From: Synechococcus sp. KORDI-52
Lineage (GTDB): Bacteria; Cyanobacteriota; Cyanobacteriia; PCC-6307; Cyanobiaceae
NCBI RefSeq assembly: GCF_000737595.1
Contig: NZ_CP006271.1
Span: 1,922,001 to 1,986,000, forward strand
DNA length: 64,000 nucleotides
Reading direction: 5' to 3'
The position numbers and the translations under genes are program-made. This document shows positions 6,569 through 63,882 of the stretch, piece after piece (within the stretch, counting starts at the first letter, position 1; each line of letters begins with the position of its first letter). The notes below the pieces were generated by a model. The model did not search any database and was not told the DNA's origin. It was given only the letters and a program-made list of their open reading frames with translations.

Positions 6569-8617
6569 TCAGGCTGCAGGAGGCACGGTGTAACTGGCAC
6601 AACGCTGCTGATCCAGATGGCCGATGTGTTTTCTCTCGGTGTAATACAGCTCCTGGTAGCGCAGCGCATCACGGTTGAGGTCATCGAACAGGGCCTGAAT
6701 CCGCACCTCCATATCCACGGAGGCCTGATCTGACGAAGCCTCCTGATCAATCAATACAGCGATGCAGGATTCCAGGGTTTGCAGACGCTGGCCGCCCCAG
6801 GCCTCCAACAAGTGCCGGCAGCGCTTCAAGCTTTTTTGCCGCTCCAACAGGGCAGCAATGCCCCGCAACTGCTCCAGCGGCTCCGCCAGGGCAACACGCT
6901 GCAATTCACCAGGCTCCAGCAGAGGCGTCAGGCGGGACACGAGCGCACTGCTCTCCAACAGGAGCTGATCGGTGAGCAAGCGGGGCAGATCGATGAGATC
7001 CAGCCCCTCGCCGTCGTCGTCGCAGCGGCTGATCGCCTCCAACCGCCCCTCACCCAGGTTGGTCTCCTCGAGGTCCGTGATGGCCGCCCAGAGATGGCGG
7101 TGATGGGGAATGGCGAAATCCTCCAGTTCGCGTTGGCGCAGTTCCTGGCGAATCGTGGCCCGATGCCGAGGGCAATGCAGATACAGCCGCAGCAGATCGG
7201 CCTCACAGCGCTCCCGATGTCCGGATTCCCCAGGCTGCTCGTGCCGGCTGGAGCGCCCATGCCAACGCTGGCCCTTCACCTGCTGGCGCAGGTCGTCCTC
7301 CAGCTGAAGCGCCAGTCGTCCCTGGCCACCACTGAGGCGCTCCGCCACCCGTTGGAGGTAGTGGGTGCGCACGGCGGACTGGGGCAGTTTGCCCAGCAGC
7401 CCCACCAGGGCGGTCACCGCCTGTTGGAACTGGTCGGCCCGGCTGAGATCGCGCTCCTCCAGCACCTGCTCGATCTGCCAATCCAGCCAGAGGGGGGCCT
7501 GATCGAGCAGAGCGCGGTAATCACCGGCCCCGTTCTGTTTGAGAAACTCATCGGGGTCCTTCCCGGACGGGAGGTGCAGAACCCGCAGCTCCAGCTGGCC
7601 CTGCATCGCCAGCTGCTCCACCTCACCGATGGCCCGATTGGCCGCACGAACGCCGGCGCCGTCGGCGTCGAAATTCAGAACGATCCGCTTGCTGTCGCTG
7701 ACGCGGCACAGCTGGGTGATCTGCTGACTGCTCAGAGCCGTGCCGAGGGAGGCCACGGCGTTGGTGATGCCGGCGGCATGCAGGGCAATCACATCGAAAT
7801 AGCCCTCCACCACCACCGCCCTGTCGTCCTTGCGGATGGCATTGGAGGCCTTGTCGAGCCCGAACAGATGCTTCCCCTTCTCGAACACTTCGGTCTCGGG
7901 GGAGTTGAGGTATTTCGGTTCGCTGCCATCAAGGCTGCGTCCCCCGAAACCGATCACCCGGCCCTGACGGTCATGGATCGGCACCATGACCCGATGGCGG
8001 AAGCGGTCATAAAACCCGTTGCCGCCCTTGCGGGGCACCACCAGCCCAGCAGCCTCCAGAAGCTCAGGTGCCAGGCCCTCGACCTGTTGAAGATGCTTGA
8101 GCAGACCATCCCACTGATCCGGCGCATAGCCGAGTTGAAAGGTCTCCTGCGTGGCGGGGCTCAACCCTCTGGCTTCATTGAGGTACTTGAGGGCCTCTGC
8201 GCCCGTTGGTGCCATCAACTGGCTGCGAAACCACCCGGCAGCCAGGGCAAGGGCCCGTTGCAGCTTGTCCCTGCGGGACAACTGCTGCCGCAGCCGTTCC
8301 TGCTGCGGACCATCCACCATCTCGATCGGCAGCTGATACCGCCGCGCCAGATCCAGCACCACATCGCTGAAACTCTGGCGCTGGAACTCCATCAGGAACT
8401 TGATGGAGTTGCCGCCAGCACCACAGGAGAAGCAGTAGTAGAACTGCTTGGCAGGCGACACCGTCATCGACGGTTTGCTGTCGTCATGGAACGGACAGAT
8501 CCCGACGAATTCCCGTCCCTTCTTCTTGAGCACCACGTGCTCGCCCACCACATCGACGATGTCGGCCCGTTCCTTGACGGCCTCGATCGTTCTGGGGTGC
8601 AGGCGGGCGTTCACCAT
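6569..8617 (-). CDS. dnaG: DNA primase DnaG
   Basis: The 682-residue protein has the three DnaG parts. The N-terminal CHC2 zinc ribbon has CPFHDDSKPSM and YYCFSCGAGG (Cys41, His44, Cys62, Cys65). The TOPRIM catalytic core has VVVEGYFDVIALHAAG and the metal-binding NFDADGAGVRAANRAI. The C-terminal helical region would bind DnaB helicase. It makes RNA primers for replication. It diverges from the EamA transporter gene. Three small unknown genes follow on the same strand. Confidence 0.97.
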   Translation of the reverse strand: MVNARLHPRTIEAVKERADIVDVVGEHVVLKKKGREFVGICPFHDDSKPSMTVSPAKQFYYCFSCGAGGNSIKFLMEFQRQSFSDVVLDLARRYQLPIEMVDGPQQERLRQQLSRRDKLQRALALAAGWFRSQLMAPTGAEALKYLNEARGLSPATQETFQLGYAPDQWDGLLKHLQQVEGLAPELLEAAGLVVPRKGGNGFYDRFRHRVMVPIHDRQGRVIGFGGRSLDGSEPKYLNSPETEVFEKGKHLFGLDKASNAIRKDDRAVVVEGYFDVIALHAAGITNAVASLGTALSSQQITQLCRVSDSKRIVLNFDADGAGVRAANRAIGEVEQLAMQGQLELRVLHLPSGKDPDEFLKQNGAGDYRALLDQAPLWLDWQIEQVLEERDLSRADQFQQAVTALVGLLGKLPQSAVRTHYLQRVAERLSGGQGRLALQLEDDLRQQVKGQRWHGRSSRHEQPGESGHRERCEADLLRLYLHCPRHRATIRQELRQRELEDFAIPHHRHLWAAITDLEETNLGEGRLEAISRCDDDGEGLDLIDLPRLLTDQLLLESSALVSRLTPLLEPGELQRVALAEPLEQLRGIAALLERQKSLKRCRHLLEAWGGQRLQTLESCIAVLIDQEASSDQASVDMEVRIQALFDDLNRDALRYQELYYTERKHIGHLDQQRCASYTVPPAA

Positions 8618-21629: not shown

Positions 21630-23393
21630 ATGGCTGTGCTTCGTCTCGACCTGATCGGCCGCTACCTGCGCCCCCATCGACGCACCGTCCTGTTGGGAGC
21701 CATCACTTTGGTGGTGGTCAACATTCTGCGGGTAACGATCCCGATGGAAGTGCGCAGCGTCGTCGATGAGCTGCAGGAGGGATTCAGCTATTCAGCGATC
21801 CTGCGTCAGGCGGGGTGGGTTGTGCTCCTTGCCAGCACCATGGGAGTGATTCGCCTGGCCTCGCGGCAGCTGATCTTCGGAGTGGGTCGGCAGGTGGAAG
21901 TTGATCTGCGCCAACGCCTGTTCGAGCACATGCTCCGTCAGGAACCCGAGTGGATTCAAAGCAAGGGCAGCGGTGAAGTCATCAGCCGTGCCACCAGCGA
22001 TGTGGAGAACATCCGGCGTCTGCTGGGATTCGCGATTCTCAGTCTGACCAACACGCTTCTGGCCTACGCACTCACGCTTCCAGCCATGTTGGCGATCGAT
22101 CCATGGCTGACCCTGGCCGCTGTGGGGCTCTATCCCGTGATGCTGAGCACTGTGCGGCTGTTTGGTGGGCGCATGATGCGTCAGAAGCGCGCCCAGCAGG
22201 AAGAACTTTCGGCTCTCAGCAATCTGATTCAGGAAGACCTCTCGGGGATCGGAGCCATCAAGATCTACGGCCAAGAGGCATCGGAACAGGAGGCCTTTGC
22301 GGCACGCAACCGCAGCTACCGAGACAGTGCCATTCGTCTGGGGAGAACTCAGAACACCCTGTTCCCTCTGCTTCAGGGCATTTCATCGATGTCGGTGCTG
22401 TTGCTGCTGGCCATCGGCAGCGGTCAGCTCGAATCCGGCCGCCTCAGTGTTGGTGGTCTCGTTGCACTGATCCTCTACGTGGAGCAACTTGTGGTCCCAA
22501 CGGCACTCTTGGGTTTCACACTCAACACCTTTCAGACCGGACAGGTCAGCCTCGAGCGGGTGGAGGAATTACTGCAGCGCGAGCCTCAGATCAAAGATGC
22601 AGATCCTGTGCCTGTCCGCTCTCGCTCAACCCAGCAACGGAAGGGATGCTTTGAAGCCCGTGGTCTGACGGTGCACTACGACAGTGCTGAGAACAACACG
22701 CTCAACGGCCTGAGCTTCTGCATCGAACCGGGAGAACTCGTGGCCGTTGTTGGTGCAGTGGGATGCGGCAAAACCACCCTGGCTCGTGCCTTCGGACGCA
22801 TGGTCCCCCTTTCGCCAGGCCAGCTGTTTTTGGATGGTGTGGATGTAACTCAGATGGCTCTTGAGGATTTGCGCCGTGATGTGGCAATCGTTCCCCAGGA
22901 GGGCTTTTTGTTCACCAGCTCCCTGGCTGACAATCTCCGCTATGGCGACCCTGAGGCAACGTATCAACAGGTCGAACTGGCTGCCGATCAGGCTCGCCTG
23001 GCTGATGACATCAAGGGATTTCCCGATGGTTTCGAAACCATCGTTGGCGAACGGGGCATCACGTTGAGTGGTGGGCAAAGGCAGCGCACGGCACTTGGAC
23101 GGGCCTTGCTGATGTCGTCGCCTGTGCTGGTTCTTGATGACGCCTTGGCGAGCGTCGACAACAACACGGCCGCAGCAATTCTCGATTCAATTCGAGCTCA
23201 GGATGCTCGCACGATCGTGATGATCAGCCATCAGCTGTCTGCCGCCGCTGCCTGCGATCGAATCCTTGTCATGGAGAGCGGGCGCATCGTTCAACAGGGG
23301 CACCACAGCCGACTGATTCAGCAGCCCGGGGTCTACAAGCGACTATGGGAGCGTCAGCAGGCATCACAACAACTGGACACCATGGCTTCCTGA
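21630..23393 (+). CDS. ABC exporter, fused membrane and ATPase domains
   Basis: The 587-residue half-transporter has six transmembrane helices in its first 320 residues. The ATPase follows: Walker A VGAVGCGKTTLA, Q-loop VPQEGFLF, signature LSGGQRQR, Walker B VLVLDDALASVD and switch MISHQLS. It resembles MsbA/MdlB-type multidrug or lipid exporters and would work as a homodimer. ATG 21630 was preferred to ATG 21591 because the protein then begins directly before the first helix. The substrate is unknown. Confidence 0.92.
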   Translation: MAVLRLDLIGRYLRPHRRTVLLGAITLVVVNILRVTIPMEVRSVVDELQEGFSYSAILRQAGWVVLLASTMGVIRLASRQLIFGVGRQVEVDLRQRLFEHMLRQEPEWIQSKGSGEVISRATSDVENIRRLLGFAILSLTNTLLAYALTLPAMLAIDPWLTLAAVGLYPVMLSTVRLFGGRMMRQKRAQQEELSALSNLIQEDLSGIGAIKIYGQEASEQEAFAARNRSYRDSAIRLGRTQNTLFPLLQGISSMSVLLLLAIGSGQLESGRLSVGGLVALILYVEQLVVPTALLGFTLNTFQTGQVSLERVEELLQREPQIKDADPVPVRSRSTQQRKGCFEARGLTVHYDSAENNTLNGLSFCIEPGELVAVVGAVGCGKTTLARAFGRMVPLSPGQLFLDGVDVTQMALEDLRRDVAIVPQEGFLFTSSLADNLRYGDPEATYQQVELAADQARLADDIKGFPDGFETIVGERGITLSGGQRQRTALGRALLMSSPVLVLDDALASVDNNTAAAILDSIRAQDARTIVMISHQLSAAAACDRILVMESGRIVQQGHHSRLIQQPGVYKRLWERQQASQQLDTMAS

Positions 23394-29624: not shown

Positions 29625-29647
29625 AAAAGGGCCCCGAGGGGCCCTTT
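29625..29647 (-). terminator. Rho-independent terminator after pstS (soluble type)
   Basis: On the minus strand AAAGGGCCC-CTCG-GGGCCCTTT forms a 9-bp stem with a 4-base loop, followed by T residues. It lies 35 bp past the stop of pstS and ends its transcript before ptrA, so the two are not simply one operon. Confidence 0.8.
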
Positions 29648-56053: not shown

Positions 56054-57277
56054 ATGACAGCAGCCACTGGGCTTCGCCGCAACAGCGCAAGGCTGAAGGG
56101 CCTAGCCAAGTATCTCCGCACCAAGCACTCTGACCGCTTCGGTCTGTCACTGCGACGCAAGACGAGGCCCAGTGGAGAGGAGTTGATCTACCTGACCTTC
56201 AACTCCAGGCCTGACGGAAGTGGTGACCAGAAGTGGCTGAAGTTGAACGCGTCATACCAAGACGGGGATGTCGTGATCTCAACTGCCGTCGACACGGCAC
56301 TCGCAGAGTTCGACAACAACCTCAAAAAGAATGCGGGTGGCCCCGTGGGCAGCTCGCTGGGGGTTTACCAACGACAAGCCTTAGGACGCATCGAAAGCTC
56401 AGGGAACTCTGAGAAACACGCTTCGCGACGTGTGAAATGGCTTAAGTCCTGCGTTCAGTGGCTGTCAGAGAACAACGGAAGGGCCACAAGCAGAGACGAC
56501 CTTCTGCGTTGGATCCAGAGCTGGCCGGCCGAAGCTCGAAGTCGGCGGGATGCGATCTCTGCAGCGTGTCTTTTGTTCGACATCGCTACCGATGGGAAAC
56601 GACTCAATCCCGGCCGAGAAAACGGCTATCAAGAACCCGCTGCAGGACAGGGGAAGCCAGTCGACCCTGCCGAAATAGAGCGAGTCATCCTGGGCCTTTG
56701 GAAGCGTTCTGAAAACTCAGAGCTCGCTCATGCTTGCGCTTGGATCACGAGCTGGGTCGCCCTTACGGGTGCCAGAGGAGCCATGGTGATGGCCTCTGAG
56801 TTGTTGTGGAAAGAACCTGGTCAAATTGAAGTTGCTGTTGGGAGCTACGTGCGCTGTCGGGACAGCAAGCGAGGCAGAAACCGACCAGCGAACCTTTGTC
56901 CGTCCTGGAGGGGCTTGCTGGAGAGCGTCGGAATTGAACGACTGCAACGACCACCAGTAAGGCTTCGTAAAGCCGCTAGTCCTTGGGACGACAAACCCAC
57001 CCTTGAACAGCAACGAAAAACTGAACAAGAACTTGGAGCCTTACATGGATGGCTCTGGCGGGAATTATCTGATGAGAAGGGCCTCAAGGCAGACCGAGAA
57101 CTTATTGGACTGCGCACACTGCGACACAACGCTGCACGACGTCTCCTCGAGGTAAAGCAGTTGGACCTACTGCAAATCGCCGGACTGCTCTCTACATCAG
57201 AAGAGATGCTGAGGCGCACCTATGCCGACCATCACCGGTTCCGCTCGCACGAAATCATTCGAGAAGTCTTCGGATAA
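56054..57277 (+). CDS. Tyrosine-recombinase-like integrase
   Basis: The 407-residue protein has an N-terminal DNA-binding-like part (SARLKGLAKYLRTKHSDRFG) and a C-terminal catalytic-like domain. Box I Arg is in ALTGARGAMVMASELLW (about residue 240). The second Arg is in GLRTLRHNAARRLL (about 353); the usual His of HxLR is an Arg here. The tyrosine is in MLRRTYADHHRF (about 389). It would insert or excise an element. It opens the island with the restriction genes. The altered box II might reduce activity. Confidence 0.8.
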   Translation: MTAATGLRRNSARLKGLAKYLRTKHSDRFGLSLRRKTRPSGEELIYLTFNSRPDGSGDQKWLKLNASYQDGDVVISTAVDTALAEFDNNLKKNAGGPVGSSLGVYQRQALGRIESSGNSEKHASRRVKWLKSCVQWLSENNGRATSRDDLLRWIQSWPAEARSRRDAISAACLLFDIATDGKRLNPGRENGYQEPAAGQGKPVDPAEIERVILGLWKRSENSELAHACAWITSWVALTGARGAMVMASELLWKEPGQIEVAVGSYVRCRDSKRGRNRPANLCPSWRGLLESVGIERLQRPPVRLRKAASPWDDKPTLEQQRKTEQELGALHGWLWRELSDEKGLKADRELIGLRTLRHNAARRLLEVKQLDLLQIAGLLSTSEEMLRRTYADHHRFRSHEIIREVFG

Positions 57278-57308: not shown

Positions 57309-57614
57309 TCAATCCAGATCGCCGGTCTGCACCTTCTGCCGAATCGCGCGCAGCAGCTCACGAATCCACTCCAAGTTGGTCGACACTCCACCGCTGTGGC
57401 GTTCGCGCCGTGCTTCGAAGAACAAACAACAGCGCAGCTCGGTGAGCGTGGAAGGTGTTCCGCGGTTCGCTAAATCGGCACAGGGCTCAAACCCGCCCAT
57501 CACCTCATAGCCGTTGATGGTGTGGGCGAAACGCTCCCAACCCCAAAGCTCTGCCTCGGGATCAGGAATGCTCTCCAGCAACAACTGCTCGTTCGGGATC
57601 AAGTGCAGTGGCAT
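57309..57614 (-). CDS. Conserved small cyanobacterial protein (101 aa)
   Basis: From ATG 57614 the protein has 101 residues. WGWERFAHTINGYEVMGGFEPCADLANR is followed by STLTELRCCLFFEARRERH and a helical tail. This FAHT(I/F)N-YE...LTELR-CLFFE pattern recurs in cyanobacterial proteins of unknown function. It has no helix-turn-helix, so it does not look like a restriction-system controller protein. It diverges from hsdM across 151 bp that hold a palindrome. Confidence 0.72.
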   Translation of the reverse strand: MPLHLIPNEQLLLESIPDPEAELWGWERFAHTINGYEVMGGFEPCADLANRGTPSTLTELRCCLFFEARRERHSGGVSTNLEWIRELLRAIRQKVQTGDLD

Positions 57615-57664
57615 GCCCAATCCAGAAGAGATGACCTGAGCTTCGGTGGTGATGGCAACAAGGT

Positions 57665-57684
57665 CATCCCTCAGTTGAGGGATG
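57665..57684. promoter_or_regulatory. 20-bp perfect palindrome between hsdM and the divergent gene
   Basis: CATCCCTCA-GT-TGAGGGATG has 9-bp arms with a 2-base centre. It sits 82 bp before the chosen hsdM start and 51 bp before the divergent start. A second weaker repeat, CCCC-ACAAAT-GGGG, follows near 57703. The position suits an operator for the restriction genes. The 2-base loop is too tight for a good RNA hairpin. Confidence 0.6.
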
Positions 57685-57765
57685 AAACTCTCATCAAAGT
57701 CCCCACAAATGGGGGAGGCAAACCCAAGTCACTGCAGGCACACTGAGAGGACGGACGAAGGAGCA

Positions 57766-59454
57766 GTGACCGACTCAGGAACCCTTAACGACAACGTCGA
57801 AGACAGCGGTGCACTCGATGCCCTGTTGGCATCAGTACGGGCCGACGAAGCTCCCGCCACAAAGAAAAAAGGACGCAAGAAGAAAGAGGCACCCGCCAAG
57901 GACTTCAAGGCAGTGCTCTGGGCATCAGCGGACAAACTCCGTGCCCAGATGGATGCCGCTGAATACAAGCATCTGGTCCTGGGTCTGATCTTCCTGAAAT
58001 ACATCTCCGACACCTTCGTGGAACAGCAGCAGAAGGTGCTGGCGACGGTGAGCAACCCAGAGTCCGACTACTACCTGGGCGATGACCCAGCAGATCACCA
58101 GGAAGCACTGGAAGATCGGGACTACTACACCCAGGAGAACGTGTTCTGGGTGCCTGCTGATGCTCGCTGGGAATCCCTGAGGAACCAGGCAAAGCAACCC
58201 GACATCGGGCAATTAATAGACAGGGCACTGGTTGCCATAGAAAACGAGAACCCCACGCTTCGGGGGAAGTTGGACAAGCGGTTCGGTGCTGCCCAACTGG
58301 AACCAGGGCGGATGGGTGAACTGGTGGACCTCATCTCCACCATTGGGTTTGGCGAAGGGAAGAAGTCAGGCGATGTCCTGGGTGAGGTCTACGAGTATTT
58401 CCTTGGTCAGTTCGCCAGTGCTGAAGGCAAGAAGGGCGGTCAGTTCTATACGCCTGCCCATGTGGTGAAGACCCTGGTTGCCGTGCTGGCGCCTCATAAG
58501 GGTCGGGTTTATGACCCCTGCTGTGGATCGGGCGGCATGTTCGTCCAAAGCGAGCGGTTCGTCGAAAGTCACGGCGGGCGACGTGACGACATCTCCATTT
58601 ATGGGCAGGAGAGCAATCCCACGACCTGGCGGTTGGCAGCGATGAACCTGGCGATCCGTGGGTTTGCTGCTGACCTCGGTCAGGAACCTGCTGACACCTT
58701 TGCCCGTGATCAGCACCCCGACCAGAAGTTCGACTACATCCTTGCCAACCCTCCGTTCAACATTTCGGACTGGGGCGGGGAGAAATACGACAGTGATCCC
58801 CGCTGGACCTTTGGGCGTCCTCCTGCTGGGAATGCCAACTACGCCTGGTTACAGCACATGCTTTGGAAACTTCGCCCTGGCGGGGAAGCAGGTGTGGTGC
58901 TCGCCAATGGATCGATGAGTTCCAACCAAAGCGGTGAAGGGCAGATCCGTGAGGCGATGGTTCGTGGTGATGCCGTGGAGGTGATGGTGGCGTTGCCTGG
59001 GCAGTTGTTCCTCAACACTCAGATCCCTGTCTGCCTTTGGTTCCTCACCAACGACAAGACCCAACGTGGTCGAGATAGGCGAGGAGAGACCTTGTTCATC
59101 GATGCCCGTCAGATGGGTTCGATGGTCAGTCGGGTAGAGCGAGTGCTCACCGATGAGGACATCGCCAAGGTTGCTGACACGGTTCATGCCTGGCGTGCTG
59201 ATGGAGATGTCGAGACCTCTTATGAAGATGTTTCTGGGTTCTGCTACTCCGCCAAGTTCGACGAGATCGAGAAGAACAGTTTTGTGTTGACTCCTGGTCG
59301 TTATGTAGGAGCAGCAGATCTAGAAGAGGACGATGAACCCTTTGATCAGAAGATGAAGCGTTTGACTGCTCTGCTCAAGCAGCAGCAGGAAGAAGGGGCG
59401 AGGTTAGACCTACAAATCATGAAAAATTTGGAGGCAATTCTAAATAATGGATAG
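57766..59454 (+). CDS. hsdM: Type I restriction-modification methyltransferase subunit HsdM
   Basis: From GTG 57766 the protein has 562 residues; AAGGAG lies close before it, and ATG 57682 is less likely because a palindrome covers it. A lysine-rich stretch ([13 protein letters not shown]) leads to the HsdM N-domain ([18 protein letters not shown]). The adenine methylase follows: DPCCGSGGM near residue 250 and ILANPPFN near 327. With HsdS it methylates the target adenine. It overlaps hsdS by 8 nt. Confidence 0.95.
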
Positions 59455-60775
59455 TCAATGGAGGGCGGTCAAAGTCAGCGATGTAGCTAAATTGATTTAT
59501 AGATATCCATCGTTTTATGGATTCAATAGACCGCCCAGTGGTATACCTGTCATCAGAGGTGAGCATCTTATCGAAAACGGTGAAATTTGCTCTGACCCAA
59601 AGGAATACTGGTTTGTTAGTAAAGAGGATTCGGATAATTTCCCAAAAACGATTCTAGAGAAACATGACATCGTAATGGCGGTTCGTGGCACGGTAGGCAA
59701 GTTTTCCAGGGTGAGAAAGTCGCATGCGGGATATCAGATTTCACCCAATACCATCCGAATATCTCCCGATCCTGAGAAAATAGATCCTTCGTATATGTTC
59801 TTTGCCTTGCAGCACAGGCATGTTTCAAGTTTTCTGCTTGGGTCTGTTGCTACATCTGCGGTCCCAGGGATTCGCGCTAAAGATATTAACGAAGCGCCTT
59901 TGCTTCTTCCGTCAATGAAGGAGCAAGTATTAATAGCCGATTTTCTCTCCCTCATATATGACAAAATTAAACTTCTCAAAGAGGCAAATGAAGCGCTTGA
60001 CGCTGTAGCGAAAGTTCTTTTCAAGTCCTGGTTTATGGACTTTGACCCTGTAAGGGCAAAGGTAGAAGGGCGACCGACTGGATTGCCTGATGAGATCAAT
60101 GAGTTGTTCCCCGATTCATTTGAGGAGTCGGAACTGGGAGAGATTCCGAATGGGTGGAGCGTTGCATCAATAAAAGATCAGTCCTCTTATCTCTCCAGGG
60201 GAATCTCACCCAAATACTGTGAGAGCGATGAGGGTGTAGTGGTCCTGAATCAGAAATGCATTAGAGGTGGTGCTATCGATTTCTCTAAGTCACGAAGGCA
60301 CGATCCTGCCAAAAAGAAAATAGCAGGAAGGGAAATTTCAAGGTTTGACTGCCTAGTTAATTCAACAGGAGTTGGGACCCTTGGTCGAGTAGCAATTGTC
60401 CCAGAGTTGACATTCGGTGATGTCATTGTTGATTCACATGTCACGGTTGTGAGGGGGAGAAGTGAGCATTCAACCTTCTACTTGACCAATACTCTTTTAA
60501 ACCGCCAACTAGAAATAGAGGCGCTGGGAGAAGGTTCTACTGGTCAAACTGAATTGTCCAGGGCGGTTCTTGGCGAAATGGCAATAGTTGTGCCTCCAGA
60601 AGGCCTTTTAAATGCCTTCTACTCCTCGACTGTTTGCCTCTTTGAGAAAAGATGGTTAAACGAAGCGACATCAGTGACTCTTTCTTCGCTTAGGGATGCC
60701 CTCTTGCCCCGCCTCATCTCAGGTGAACTAAGAGTTCCAGATGCCGAGAAGATGCTGGAGGAGGTCGGTATCTGA
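59447..60775 (+). CDS. hsdS: Type I restriction-modification specificity subunit HsdS
   Basis: The 442-residue protein has two target-recognition domains (about 1-165 and 230-400). They are joined by the conserved helical spacer [21 protein letters not shown] and end with a second spacer ([17 protein letters not shown]). It sets the two half-sites recognised. The DNA is clearly AT-richer than hsdM and hsdR, especially in the first half, typical of domain swapping by recombination. It starts 8 nt inside hsdM and ends 1 nt over hsdR. Confidence 0.93.
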
Positions 60776-63700
60776 TGGCATTCATCTCAGAAGACGATCT
60801 GGAGCAGATGTCCCTGGAGTGGTTCCAGGAGATCGGATACACCTTTATCCATGGACCACTGCTTGCTCCTGACGGAGAGACCCCAGAGCGGGATGACTTC
60901 CGCCAGGTGGTGCTTACTGGTCGACTTCGTTCGGCACTGACGAAACTCAACCCAGGAGTGCCAGCAGCAACCATAGAGTCGGCAGTGCTCCAACTGGCGA
61001 ACCCCAATACTCCTGGTCTGCTGCCATCCAATCGTCAGTTCCATCGCTGGATGACGACGGGTCTGCCCATCACCTACATGGATGGAAACCAAGAGATCGG
61101 CATCCGCCTCAAGGTGATTGGGTTTGACGACCCCAAATCCAACGACTGGTTGGTGGTCAACCAATTGGCGATCCAGGGTCTGAAACACAACCGACGCCCT
61201 GACGTTGTCGTCTACCTGAACGGTCTCCCCGTAGCAGTCCTGGAACTTAAAAACCCTGCCGACGAGAAGGCAGACATCTGGGCAGCGTTCAACCAACTCC
61301 AGACCTACAAGGACAACATCCCAGACCTGTTCACCTCCAACGTGCTGATGGTGATCAGTGATGGCACCTATGCCCGTGCGGGATCGCTATCCGCCTCAAA
61401 GGAACGCTTCCAGCAGTGGCGGGTGATCGACGCCGAGCAGGACCTGGATCCACTTGGCAAGTTCCGTGAACTGGAGACCTTGATCCGTGGTCTCTTCGAT
61501 CAGAAGCGCCTGCTCGACTTCATCCGCTACTTCTGCCTGTTTGAGGACGACGGCAAGATCATCAAGAAGATCGCTGCCTACCACCAGTTCCATGCCGTTC
61601 GGGCAGCAGTGGAGCGGGTGGCAGAAGCAAGCAAACCAGGCGGCGACCGAAAGGGTGGAGTGGTCTGGCACACCCAGGGCGCTGGCAAAAGCATTGAGAT
61701 GGCGTGTCTGGCGGGCAAGTTGCTCACCGACCAACGCCTTCAGAATCCAACCCTGGTGATGGTCACTGACCGTCAAGACCTCGATGGGCAGTTGTTTGGG
61801 GTCTTCGCTGGAGCAGGGGATCTCCTTGGCGAGAACCCTCAGCAGGCAGACAGCAGGCAAGAACTACGGGATCTACTCGCCAACCGACCCAGTGGCGGAA
61901 TCATCTTCACCACGATCCAGAAGTTCGGCACCGAAGAGGGTGAGGACAAGTTCCCAACCTTGAGTGACCGCCACAACATCGTGGTCATCTGTGACGAGGC
62001 ACACAGGACCCAATACGGATTCAAGGGGCGCCTCGACAGCAAAACAGGCGAGATCAAATACGGACTGGCAAAGGCACTACGGGATGCTCTGCCCGAGGCA
62101 ACCTTCCTTGCCTTCACGGGAACACCCATCTCTCAAGACGACCGTGACACCCAGGCAGTCTTTGGGCATTACGTCTCCGTCTACGACATCCAGCAGGCAG
62201 TCGAAGACGGTGCCACGGTGCCGATCTACTACGAGTCCCGACTGGCGAAGTTGGGATTGAAGGAGAGCGTCCTCTCTGGCGTCGACGACCAAGTGGATGA
62301 ACTCTTTAGCGATGAGGACGACATCCCTGCTGCTGAGCGAGCAAAGAGTCGTTGGGCAGCGTTGGAGGCGCTGGTGGGTGCTGAACCTCGCCTGAAGCAG
62401 GTGGCAGCAGATCTGGTCTCTCATTACGAGCAGAGATCCAAGACCCAACCAGGCAAGGCAATGGTTGTGGCGATGAGTCGGGACATCTGTGCCCGTCTCT
62501 ATGACGCCATCGTTGCTCTACGCCCTGATTGGCACGACACCGATACGAGCAAAGGTGCCATCAAGGTCGTGATGACGGCATCGGCATCAGACGAGCAGCA
62601 CCTCCAACCTCACCACACCAGTAAGCAGCAAAAGAAAGATCTGGAGAAGCGGTTCAAGGACCCTGCCGATCCCTTGAAGATCGTGATCGTCAGGGACATG
62701 TGGTTAACGGGATTCGATGCCCCGTGTATGGCGACCATGTATGTCGACAAACCGATGAAAGGGGCGAACCTTGCTCAGGCAATCGCCCGTGTGAACAGGG
62801 TTTTCAAGGACAAACCAGGCGGTCTGATCGTCGATTACATCGGCATCGCTCCTCAACTGAAGGAAGCACTGGCGACCTACACAGCAGCAAAGGGCAAGGG
62901 CAAACCAACACTCGACACCAGCGAGGCAGTTCGGATCCTGAGGGAGCAACTCCAGATCGCCAAGGACATCCTTCACCCAGTGGATTGGAGCGGGTTCAGG
63001 GAGAAGGGCAAAGCACTTGAACTGATCTCCAACTGCCTCGACCACATCCTTGGCATTGCTGATGGCAAGCAGCGTTTCTGTGACACCGTTCTGAAGGTCA
63101 CCAAGGCATTCGCCCTCTGTGGCACCACTGAAGAGGCGATGGCGGTCTCCGAAGAGGTGGCGTTCCTTCAGGCAGTAAGAGCACCCCTGATCAAGGGTGA
63201 TGGCAGCGGGTCAGGTGACCCCATCGATGTGAACTACAAACTCCAGCAACTGCTGTCTGAGTCGCTGGTGGCAGAGGGCGTCATGGATGTCTTCAAGGTT
63301 GCTGGTCTGAAGAATCCCGACATCAGCATCATGTCGGACCAGTTCCTGGCAGAGGTTGCCAAGATTCCCCAGAAGAACCTGGCGGTGGAACTGCTCCAGC
63401 GCCTGATCAAGGACGAACTGAAGACCAAGTTCAAGACCAACGTCGTCAAGCAGAAGCGGTTCAGCGAACTGCTGACGGCATCGCTGAACAAATACTCAAA
63501 CCGTGCTGTCGAGGCGGCACAGGTGATCGCTGAACTGATCGAGATGGCGAAGAAGTTCCGTGAGGAACTAGAACGTGGCGTTGCCCTTGGTCTGACTGAT
63601 GCCGAACAGTCCTTCTACGACGCTTTGGCAGACAACCCGTCAGCACAGGAACTGATGAAGGAAGACGTGCTGGCGACCATGGCAAGGGAATTGGCGGAGA

Positions 63701-63882
63701 TGCTCAGACGTGACGCCACCATCGACTGGCAGTTCAAGGAAAACGTCAGGGCGAAACTCCGCCTGAAGATCAAGACGCTGCTCAAGCGATATAAATACCC
63801 GCCTGATCAGCAGGTCACTGCCATTGATTTGGTGCTCCAGCAGGCAGAGACCTTGGGAGAAGAGCTAGTGGAGGCGGCATGA
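60775..63882 (+). CDS. hsdR: Type I restriction enzyme motor and nuclease subunit HsdR
   Basis: The 1035-residue protein has all expected parts. The PD-(D/E)xK nuclease is RRPDVVVYL and VAVLELKNP (about 140-162). The helicase has HTQGAGKSIEMA (about 300), VICDEAHRTQ (about 405) and FLAFTGTP (about 447). A C-terminal HsdM-HsdS contact region follows. It pulls and cuts unmethylated DNA with ATP. It is complete and uninterrupted. The start overlaps hsdS by one base and the next gene by four. Confidence 0.96.
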   Translation: MAFISEDDLEQMSLEWFQEIGYTFIHGPLLAPDGETPERDDFRQVVLTGRLRSALTKLNPGVPAATIESAVLQLANPNTPGLLPSNRQFHRWMTTGLPITYMDGNQEIGIRLKVIGFDDPKSNDWLVVNQLAIQGLKHNRRPDVVVYLNGLPVAVLELKNPADEKADIWAAFNQLQTYKDNIPDLFTSNVLMVISDGTYARAGSLSASKERFQQWRVIDAEQDLDPLGKFRELETLIRGLFDQKRLLDFIRYFCLFEDDGKIIKKIAAYHQFHAVRAAVERVAEASKPGGDRKGGVVWHTQGAGKSIEMACLAGKLLTDQRLQNPTLVMVTDRQDLDGQLFGVFAGAGDLLGENPQQADSRQELRDLLANRPSGGIIFTTIQKFGTEEGEDKFPTLSDRHNIVVICDEAHRTQYGFKGRLDSKTGEIKYGLAKALRDALPEATFLAFTGTPISQDDRDTQAVFGHYVSVYDIQQAVEDGATVPIYYESRLAKLGLKESVLSGVDDQVDELFSDEDDIPAAERAKSRWAALEALVGAEPRLKQVAADLVSHYEQRSKTQPGKAMVVAMSRDICARLYDAIVALRPDWHDTDTSKGAIKVVMTASASDEQHLQPHHTSKQQKKDLEKRFKDPADPLKIVIVRDMWLTGFDAPCMATMYVDKPMKGANLAQAIARVNRVFKDKPGGLIVDYIGIAPQLKEALATYTAAKGKGKPTLDTSEAVRILREQLQIAKDILHPVDWSGFREKGKALELISNCLDHILGIADGKQRFCDTVLKVTKAFALCGTTEEAMAVSEEVAFLQAVRAPLIKGDGSGSGDPIDVNYKLQQLLSESLVAEGVMDVFKVAGLKNPDISIMSDQFLAEVAKIPQKNLAVELLQRLIKDELKTKFKTNVVKQKRFSELLTASLNKYSNRAVEAAQVIAELIEMAKKFREELERGVALGLTDAEQSFYDALADNPSAQELMKEDVLATMARELAEMLRRDATIDWQFKENVRAKLRLKIKTLLKRYKYPPDQQVTAIDLVLQQAETLGEELVEAA

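Follow-up and report, generated by a model that had tools for sequence, protein, structure and literature searches.

The palindrome between hsdM and a divergently oriented small gene is probably one unit of a two-unit operator of a Synechococcus regulon, in which an activator of the LuxR/NarL type would act at the promoters of several genes. The stretch of DNA analysed, hereafter the window, comprises 64,000 nucleotides of Synechococcus sp. KORDI-52, and the features under discussion are compiled in Table 1.

Table 1. Coordinates, within the window, of the palindrome, the two operator units, the candidate promoter elements and the neighbouring genes.
Feature	Position	Strand	Description
Reported palindrome	57664..57685	.	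TCATCCCTCA-GT-TGAGGGATGA; perfect 10-bp arms, 2-nt centre
Unit 1	57667..57682	.	TCCCTCAGTTGAGGGA; exact 7-2-7 core, 14/14 to TCCCYCRNNYGRGGGA
Unit 2	57701..57716	.	CCCCACAAATGGGGGA; degenerate, 12/14, offset +34 from unit 1
Candidate -10 of hsdM	57739..57744	+	CACACT, 23-28 nt after unit 2; assigned by analogy
Candidate -10 of small gene	57639..57644	-	GAAGCT, 23-28 nt after unit 1
Small conserved gene	57309..57614	-	101 aa; transcribed away from hsdM
hsdM	57766..59454	+	N6_Mtase 1.4e-104, HsdM_N 3.1e-23; GTG start codon, 49 nt downstream of unit 2
hsdS	59447..60775	+	Methylase_S 1.5e-15
hsdR	60775..63882	+	HSDR_N 1.5e-44, T1RH-like_C 6e-117

With regard to the palindrome itself, a preliminary description had reported 20 bp with 9-bp arms; it is present at that place, and its actual span is 57664-57685, with arms of 10 bp rather than 9. 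It occupies the 151-base gap between hsdM (GTG at 57766, plus strand) and the small minus-strand gene (57614-57309). The window contains four perfect inverted repeats with 10-bp arms and a spacer of 0-8 nt, where 20 Markov-1 simulations averaged 0.85, and 12 with 9-bp arms, where 3.8 would be expected; the further 10-bp-arm repeats lie at 8385-8410, 23024-23043 and 29626-29647. A bare palindrome is mildly unusual and weak evidence when taken alone, and its weight comes from recurrence. The idea that it forms part of a coding frame was rejected: a minus-strand frame is open upstream, but start distances span more than one frame, and at locus L051 the frame of the small-gene homologue (103 aa) does not stay open past the gene.

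The hsdM-hsdS-hsdR run was recognised by Pfam and PADLOC, and among the NCBIfam models hsdR alone scored above the cut-off. Gene starts were taken from a simple in-house gene caller, which missed hsdS and an integrase-like open reading frame; the hsdM start at 57766 is the choice of this caller, and an in-frame ATG is also present at 57682. Homologues of the small gene were found in 42 of the 300 genomes of the family, and the gene gave no match in Pfam, NCBIfam, PADLOC or PHROG. It is adjoined by the integrase-like frame (56054-57277, plus strand, 407 aa), which had no match in the same four collections and whose C-terminus we take, from its motif, to resemble a tyrosine recombinase. Just past hsdR, between it and rmuC, a gene that extends beyond the window end (L195:9919-10806) carries a NucS_C/YhcG-like nuclease domain.

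The palindrome belongs to a motif family with the core TCCCTCA-NN-TGAGGGA, that is, inverted heptamers around a 2-nt centre (7-2-7). The exact core, TCCCTCANNTGAGGGA, was present in 33 of the 300 family genomes (reversed-pattern control, 0), with 19 of 24 genomes in genus g1, 10 of 23 in genus g34, and four among the remaining 253. In the KORDI-52 genome, three places matched with at most three mismatches of 20 specified bases, the window palindrome included (reversed control, 0), and TCCCYCRNNYGRGGGA was matched exactly at nine (control, 0); allowing one mismatch gave 20 matches versus 12 in the control, a small excess. The looser pattern TCCCYCRNNYGRGGGA summed to 276 copies versus 14 reversed over the 47 g1 and g34 genomes, and to 8 copies versus 17 reversed in 23 genomes of other genera. 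Within the phylum, the strict doublet was restricted to five genomes out of 386, each of them in g1. In a collection of 84,980 species, it was found in five stretches, all from Synechococcus, and in viral contigs none was found, both scans being ones that may omit records near the genome of the window. A phage origin of the doublet was rejected on the viral-contig result. A different palindrome, TCTTCCCTCTTTGGAGGGTTGA, was noticed together with two variants of it; the 12 genomes concerned belong to genus g17 (L031-L042). In the literature searched, the coverage of which was partial, neither the motif nor the LuxR/NarL-type regulator described below was found in print; in the cases checked there, the string TCCCTCA corresponded to one probe and one primer.

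Copies of the motif are frequently paired. Doublets were observed in 54 of 89 arrays, with a spacing of 34 bp in 47 of them, 35 bp in five and 33 bp in two, and none had a third unit at the doublet spacing; neighbouring units totalled 54 versus 1.2 in shuffled flanks. Upstream of small-gene homologues (L048, L049, L050 and L051), the 34-bp spacing of the pair is kept while the spacer has diverged. In the window, unit 1 is promoter-proximal for the small gene and distal for hsdM, for which unit 2 is the proximal one. The marked palindrome does lie in the upstream region of hsdM, as the preliminary description had it, but as the distal unit, the proximal one being that at 57701-57716.

A dispersed, palindromic motif in doublets would also suit a REP-type extragenic repeat, or an mRNA hairpin acting as terminator or stabiliser, with no promoter role. 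Array placement lends this reading some ground: of the 89 arrays, 30 lie between divergent genes, 25 have tandem and 16 have convergent neighbours, three are inside called genes and 15 were undecided, and the 16 convergent arrays and the three in called genes count against a promoter switch. Unit positions 5 and 12 also covary, with 19 C-G pairs versus about eight expected. Flank pairing, however, did not reach significance in singlets or at unit 1, and was weak for unit-2 flanks (reached by 22 of 2000 shuffles) and outer flanks (58 of 2000), while the pairing of unit 1 with the reverse complement of unit 2 fell below that of shuffles (3.26 vs 3.57). Moreover, the regular spacing to gene starts and to a downstream hexamer, described below, and the conservation of units despite diverged spacers are unexpected for such repeats. 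We consider a repeat or hairpin without promoter role very unlikely, and a hairpin or terminator was rejected as the main reading on the flank and unit-pairing tests, two of the flank tests being weakly positive. Five doublets between convergent genes (L103, L109, L115, L125 and L133), from five genomes, lie shortly downstream of stop codons, share a common left-hand gene and have no visible promoter role.

The position of the units was analysed in flanks that have a called start 40-80 nt ahead of them, of which 45 remained after collapse at 60% identity and 39 after six with a second unit were dropped. Of these 39, 30 have a T at position 28 downstream of the unit (binomial p 1e-11 vs the mean T content) and 21 an A at position 24 (p 3e-5), and the pattern nAnnnT was found at offset 23 in 19, the next best offset having six. 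rmuC and the lux operon contribute seven rows each to this set, and the by-family count, grouped by hand, is the safer one: T at +28 held in 15 of 24 gene families, where about six were expected, and failed in nine. In non-facing flanks, a set that includes uncalled genes, the proportion was 55 of 164. The distance to the start was 49-54 nt in 24 of the 39 facing flanks, and 12 of the 24 families have a member at 46-54 nt.

The hexamers at this position match TATAAT poorly. For hsdM they read CACACT in the window, CAAAAT in three other genomes (G231, G253 and G261) and GAAAAT in a second hsdM family; for the nuclease-helicase gene, AAGAAT (G213) and CAAAAT (G285), with GCATCG at a fragment in G249; and for the lux operon, CTCAAT. 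Across 20 lux-operon promoters, selected because they carry a unit, the hexamer (unselected) averaged 1.77 bits and the proximal unit (partly selected) 1.64 bits, compared with 0.37-0.70 bits for spacers and other flanks. With the -10-like hexamer as the reference point, the unit stops 22 nt upstream. If the hexamer is a -10 element, its location at 23-28 nt would place the centre of the unit near -42.5, and the constant start distance of about 50 nt would follow from transcription starting some 15 nt before the start codon. The position -42.5 is that of class II activators. The geometry thus looks like that of an activator rather than a repressor, a repressor bound upstream being a less likely alternative.

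The preliminary description had proposed a dimer-bound operator occupied by a repressor specific to hsd, and had pointed to related hsd operons as the place to look for the same palindrome. A search with HsdM_N in the 47 genomes returned 12 matches in 10 genomes, and in eight of them a unit lies 49-59 nt upstream of the gene's own start (best score kept within 40-74 nt upstream). The distances are 49 nt in the KORDI-52 genome (G000; 12/14, partner 14/14) and 50 nt in its second copy, 50 in G112, 49 in G231, 49 in G253 (13/14), 49 in G261 (12/14, a pseudogene), 50 in G297 and 59 in G156 (13/14). The remaining four matches fall within same-strand gene runs whose head carries a unit. In G285 (two matches) and G213, hsdM follows a nuclease-helicase gene with a doublet, the proximal unit of which (11/14; partner 14/14) ends 48 nt before that gene. 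The run in G075 has a 14/14 unit as well, 183 nt ahead of what was called as its first gene. The second copy in KORDI-52 stands at the second of the three palindrome places in that genome, and its product matches HsdM_N (E 1.6e-17). This truncated second hsdM (L002:1106-1453; G000:C1 about 1832253-1832600) comprises the N-terminal part only and keeps its unit 50 nt upstream.

The palindrome is therefore conserved before related hsd operons, so that the absence of conservation named in the preliminary description as a refuting outcome was not observed, and conservation and position together lend good support to an operator, which we infer to be protein-bound; the repressor part of the proposal was not supported. 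A bound repressor specific to hsd, which we hold to be highly improbable, would agree with the finding that the observed hsdM runs have a unit in their promoter regions, but the same kind of unit precedes genes other than hsd, namely the small gene, rmuC, the nuclease-helicase gene, a LuxR/NarL-type operon and others, and its location, near -42.5, is upstream of and not over the -10-like hexamer. The proximal unit of hsdM in the window scores 12/14, which counts against the promoter-switch reading.

Units about 50 nt before starts were found at hsdM, the small gene, rmuC, the nuclease-helicase gene and the LuxR/NarL-type operon. In 20 island loci, which had been selected for their proximity to the small gene, rmuC and hsdM, a unit of at least 13/14 at 46-60 nt was present at 17 of 249 called genes, and for the same 249 genes neither the reversed motif nor a unit at 5-19 nt gave any (0 in both controls). 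The small gene had a unit of at least 13/14 at all 11 loci first examined in g1 and g34, compared with a unit of at least 12/14 at 0 of 11 loci in other genera; among later loci, a unit was seen in G249 and none in G197 and G297, these counts leaving out G101, G239 and the second G253 copy. For rmuC, seven of 16 loci (13 genomes) have a unit at 49-51 nt, one (G147) has a unit but no resolved start, and eight, one of them cut by a contig end, are without a unit and count against a shared switch. The KORDI-52 rmuC, which is preceded by a unit at 51 nt, begins approximately 2.2 kb beyond the end of the window. In G141, an N6_N4_Mtase DNA methylase gene (L050:2-1354) faces the small gene instead of hsdM; its frame offers two ATG codons, at 50 nt and at 26 nt from the doublet.

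Variable contents are flanked by the small gene and rmuC in several genomes. hsdMSR lies between them in KORDI-52; the islands of G285 and G213 hold the nuclease-helicase gene (AAA_11/AAA_12, RNase_H_2) and then HsdM genes; that of G089 holds the nuclease-helicase gene together with DUF499, DUF1156-methylase and PLD/SNF2-helicase genes; and that of G253 holds a type III restriction gene. rmuC itself is accessory (13 of 39 genomes). The units thus adjoin variable defence genes, and the integrase-like frame at 56054-57277 adjoins the small gene, both of which would fit a recombination or insertion site for island cassettes; yet the units are tied to gene starts, and no strict doublet was found in viral contigs, so that we regard such a site as exceedingly improbable.

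As for the protein that would bind the operator, a LuxR/NarL-type gene recurs beside units. Its product has a GerE domain (6.3e-16) and a receiver below the Pfam cut-off, and its nearest solved relatives include NarL, DevR and, closest of all, VraR (1.6e-18). The receiver is degenerate, with a Ser aligned to the Asp of VraR that we take to be the phosphoacceptor. In the 300-genome set, g1 and g34 alone were listed with copies at 66% identity or above, or with fragments of high identity, and the best relatives outside these genera reach 41-44%; the KORDI-52 copy lies at G000:C1:1581868-1582575. A unit was found upstream of the gene at 20 of 25 orthologue loci (five without) and at none of five paralogue loci. 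At these orthologue loci, the unit is located 264-279 nt before the lux start and, wherever a small leading ORF had been called, 50-53 nt before this ORF.

Genomes with the orthologue contain a mean of 8.4 motif copies (n=27) compared with 2.4 in those without (n=20; p 1.5e-6), and the difference persists within g1 (p 3e-4) and g34 (p 2e-3), the sorting being by hand and all three tests ignoring phylogeny. Six genomes counted as bearing the regulator have fragments or stops (G075, G174, G207, G216, G225 and G273). The small gene and the regulator lie within 18 kb of each other in nine of the 12 genomes that have both; in KORDI-52 the regulator is about 397 kb from the island.

The LuxR/NarL-like regulator is the most likely candidate for the binder. 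The operator might instead keep the same role while another transcription factor binds it, the LuxR/NarL gene being a mere target or an island passenger. Two genomes lean that way: G259, a clear exception, combines 12 motif copies with the lack of a close orthologue (its best relative is 40% identical, with no unit beside it), and G216 has 17 sites alongside a broken regulator copy. Against this, both the distribution of the regulator and its own upstream unit, at 20 of 25 loci, fit the regulator well, and we judge a different binder unlikely. The small protein was set aside as binder, motif-containing genomes often being without its gene; its single-sequence AlphaFold model is poor (mean pLDDT 59.5, all-helical), and the search for a solved relative found none (best E 0.2).

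In the LuxR/NarL-type activator model, which we favour, the operator would consist of 7-2-7 inverted heptamers in two units 34 bp apart. The proximal unit, 22 nt upstream of the -10-like hexamer, would be bound by a dimeric activator that contacts RNA polymerase and replaces the -35 element, presumably in answer to a signal. The doublet in the window would serve back-to-back promoters, those of hsdMSR and of the small gene. As rmuC, nuclease-helicase and DNA methylase genes carry the same module, exchangeable defence cassettes may be placed under one switch, with the GerE-domain regulator, whose own operon usually bears a unit, as the predicted binder. A broader proposal, made tentatively and with slightly less than even confidence, is that of a plug-in promoter (7-2-7 at about -42.5 and often at -76.5) that would bring any defence operon of the island under one LuxR/NarL-type activator, providing co-ordinated, inducible restriction-modification.

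Sites of the NarL, VraR and DevR type are 7-2-7 inverted heptamers; a statement of this spacing for NarL was looked for in the literature consulted and not found there. The motif described here shares the inverted heptamers with a 2-nt centre, and the candidate shares the GerE domain; the differences are the receiver below the Pfam cut-off and the heptamer, TCCCTCA here compared with TACYYMT for NarL (PMC4886647).

The transcription of type I restriction-modification (R-M) loci is a subject on which a 2025 review finds 'surprisingly little information' (PMC12707154), and the preliminary description had held that such systems rarely have a known controller and that a bound repressor here would be new. 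The novelty is smaller than this, since HsdC (PMC5282649) and RptR (PMC12255303) have already been published. RptR is a repressor of type I R-M defence islands, and its case resembles the present one in that a transcription factor controls a type I R-M island via repeated short palindromes at the promoter; in the cited account, it is encoded by the island's first gene and binds TAGCTA (PMC12255303), in contrast to the 7-2-7 palindrome, activator-like position, use by several operons and LuxR/NarL-like candidate described here. HsdC and related C proteins act at type I hsd loci in Mollicutes, likewise with a conserved repeat at the hsd promoter and further genomic targets, but the repeats reported are direct, (GTGTTAN5)2, and the protein belongs to another family (PMC5282649). 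The BrxR/WYL systems provide a further parallel, one regulator family being attached to many defence systems, although the regulators described there have WYL domains (PMC9122601, PMC9122589). Transcriptional control of type I loci is accordingly of a known kind, and what differs is the type of site, the activator-like geometry, the fact that several operons have the site in common, and the candidate of the LuxR/NarL type. The finding supplies a putative operator, a promoter model and a candidate regulator, and, if it is true, one regulator would switch the exchangeable defence operons of cyanobacterial islands together.
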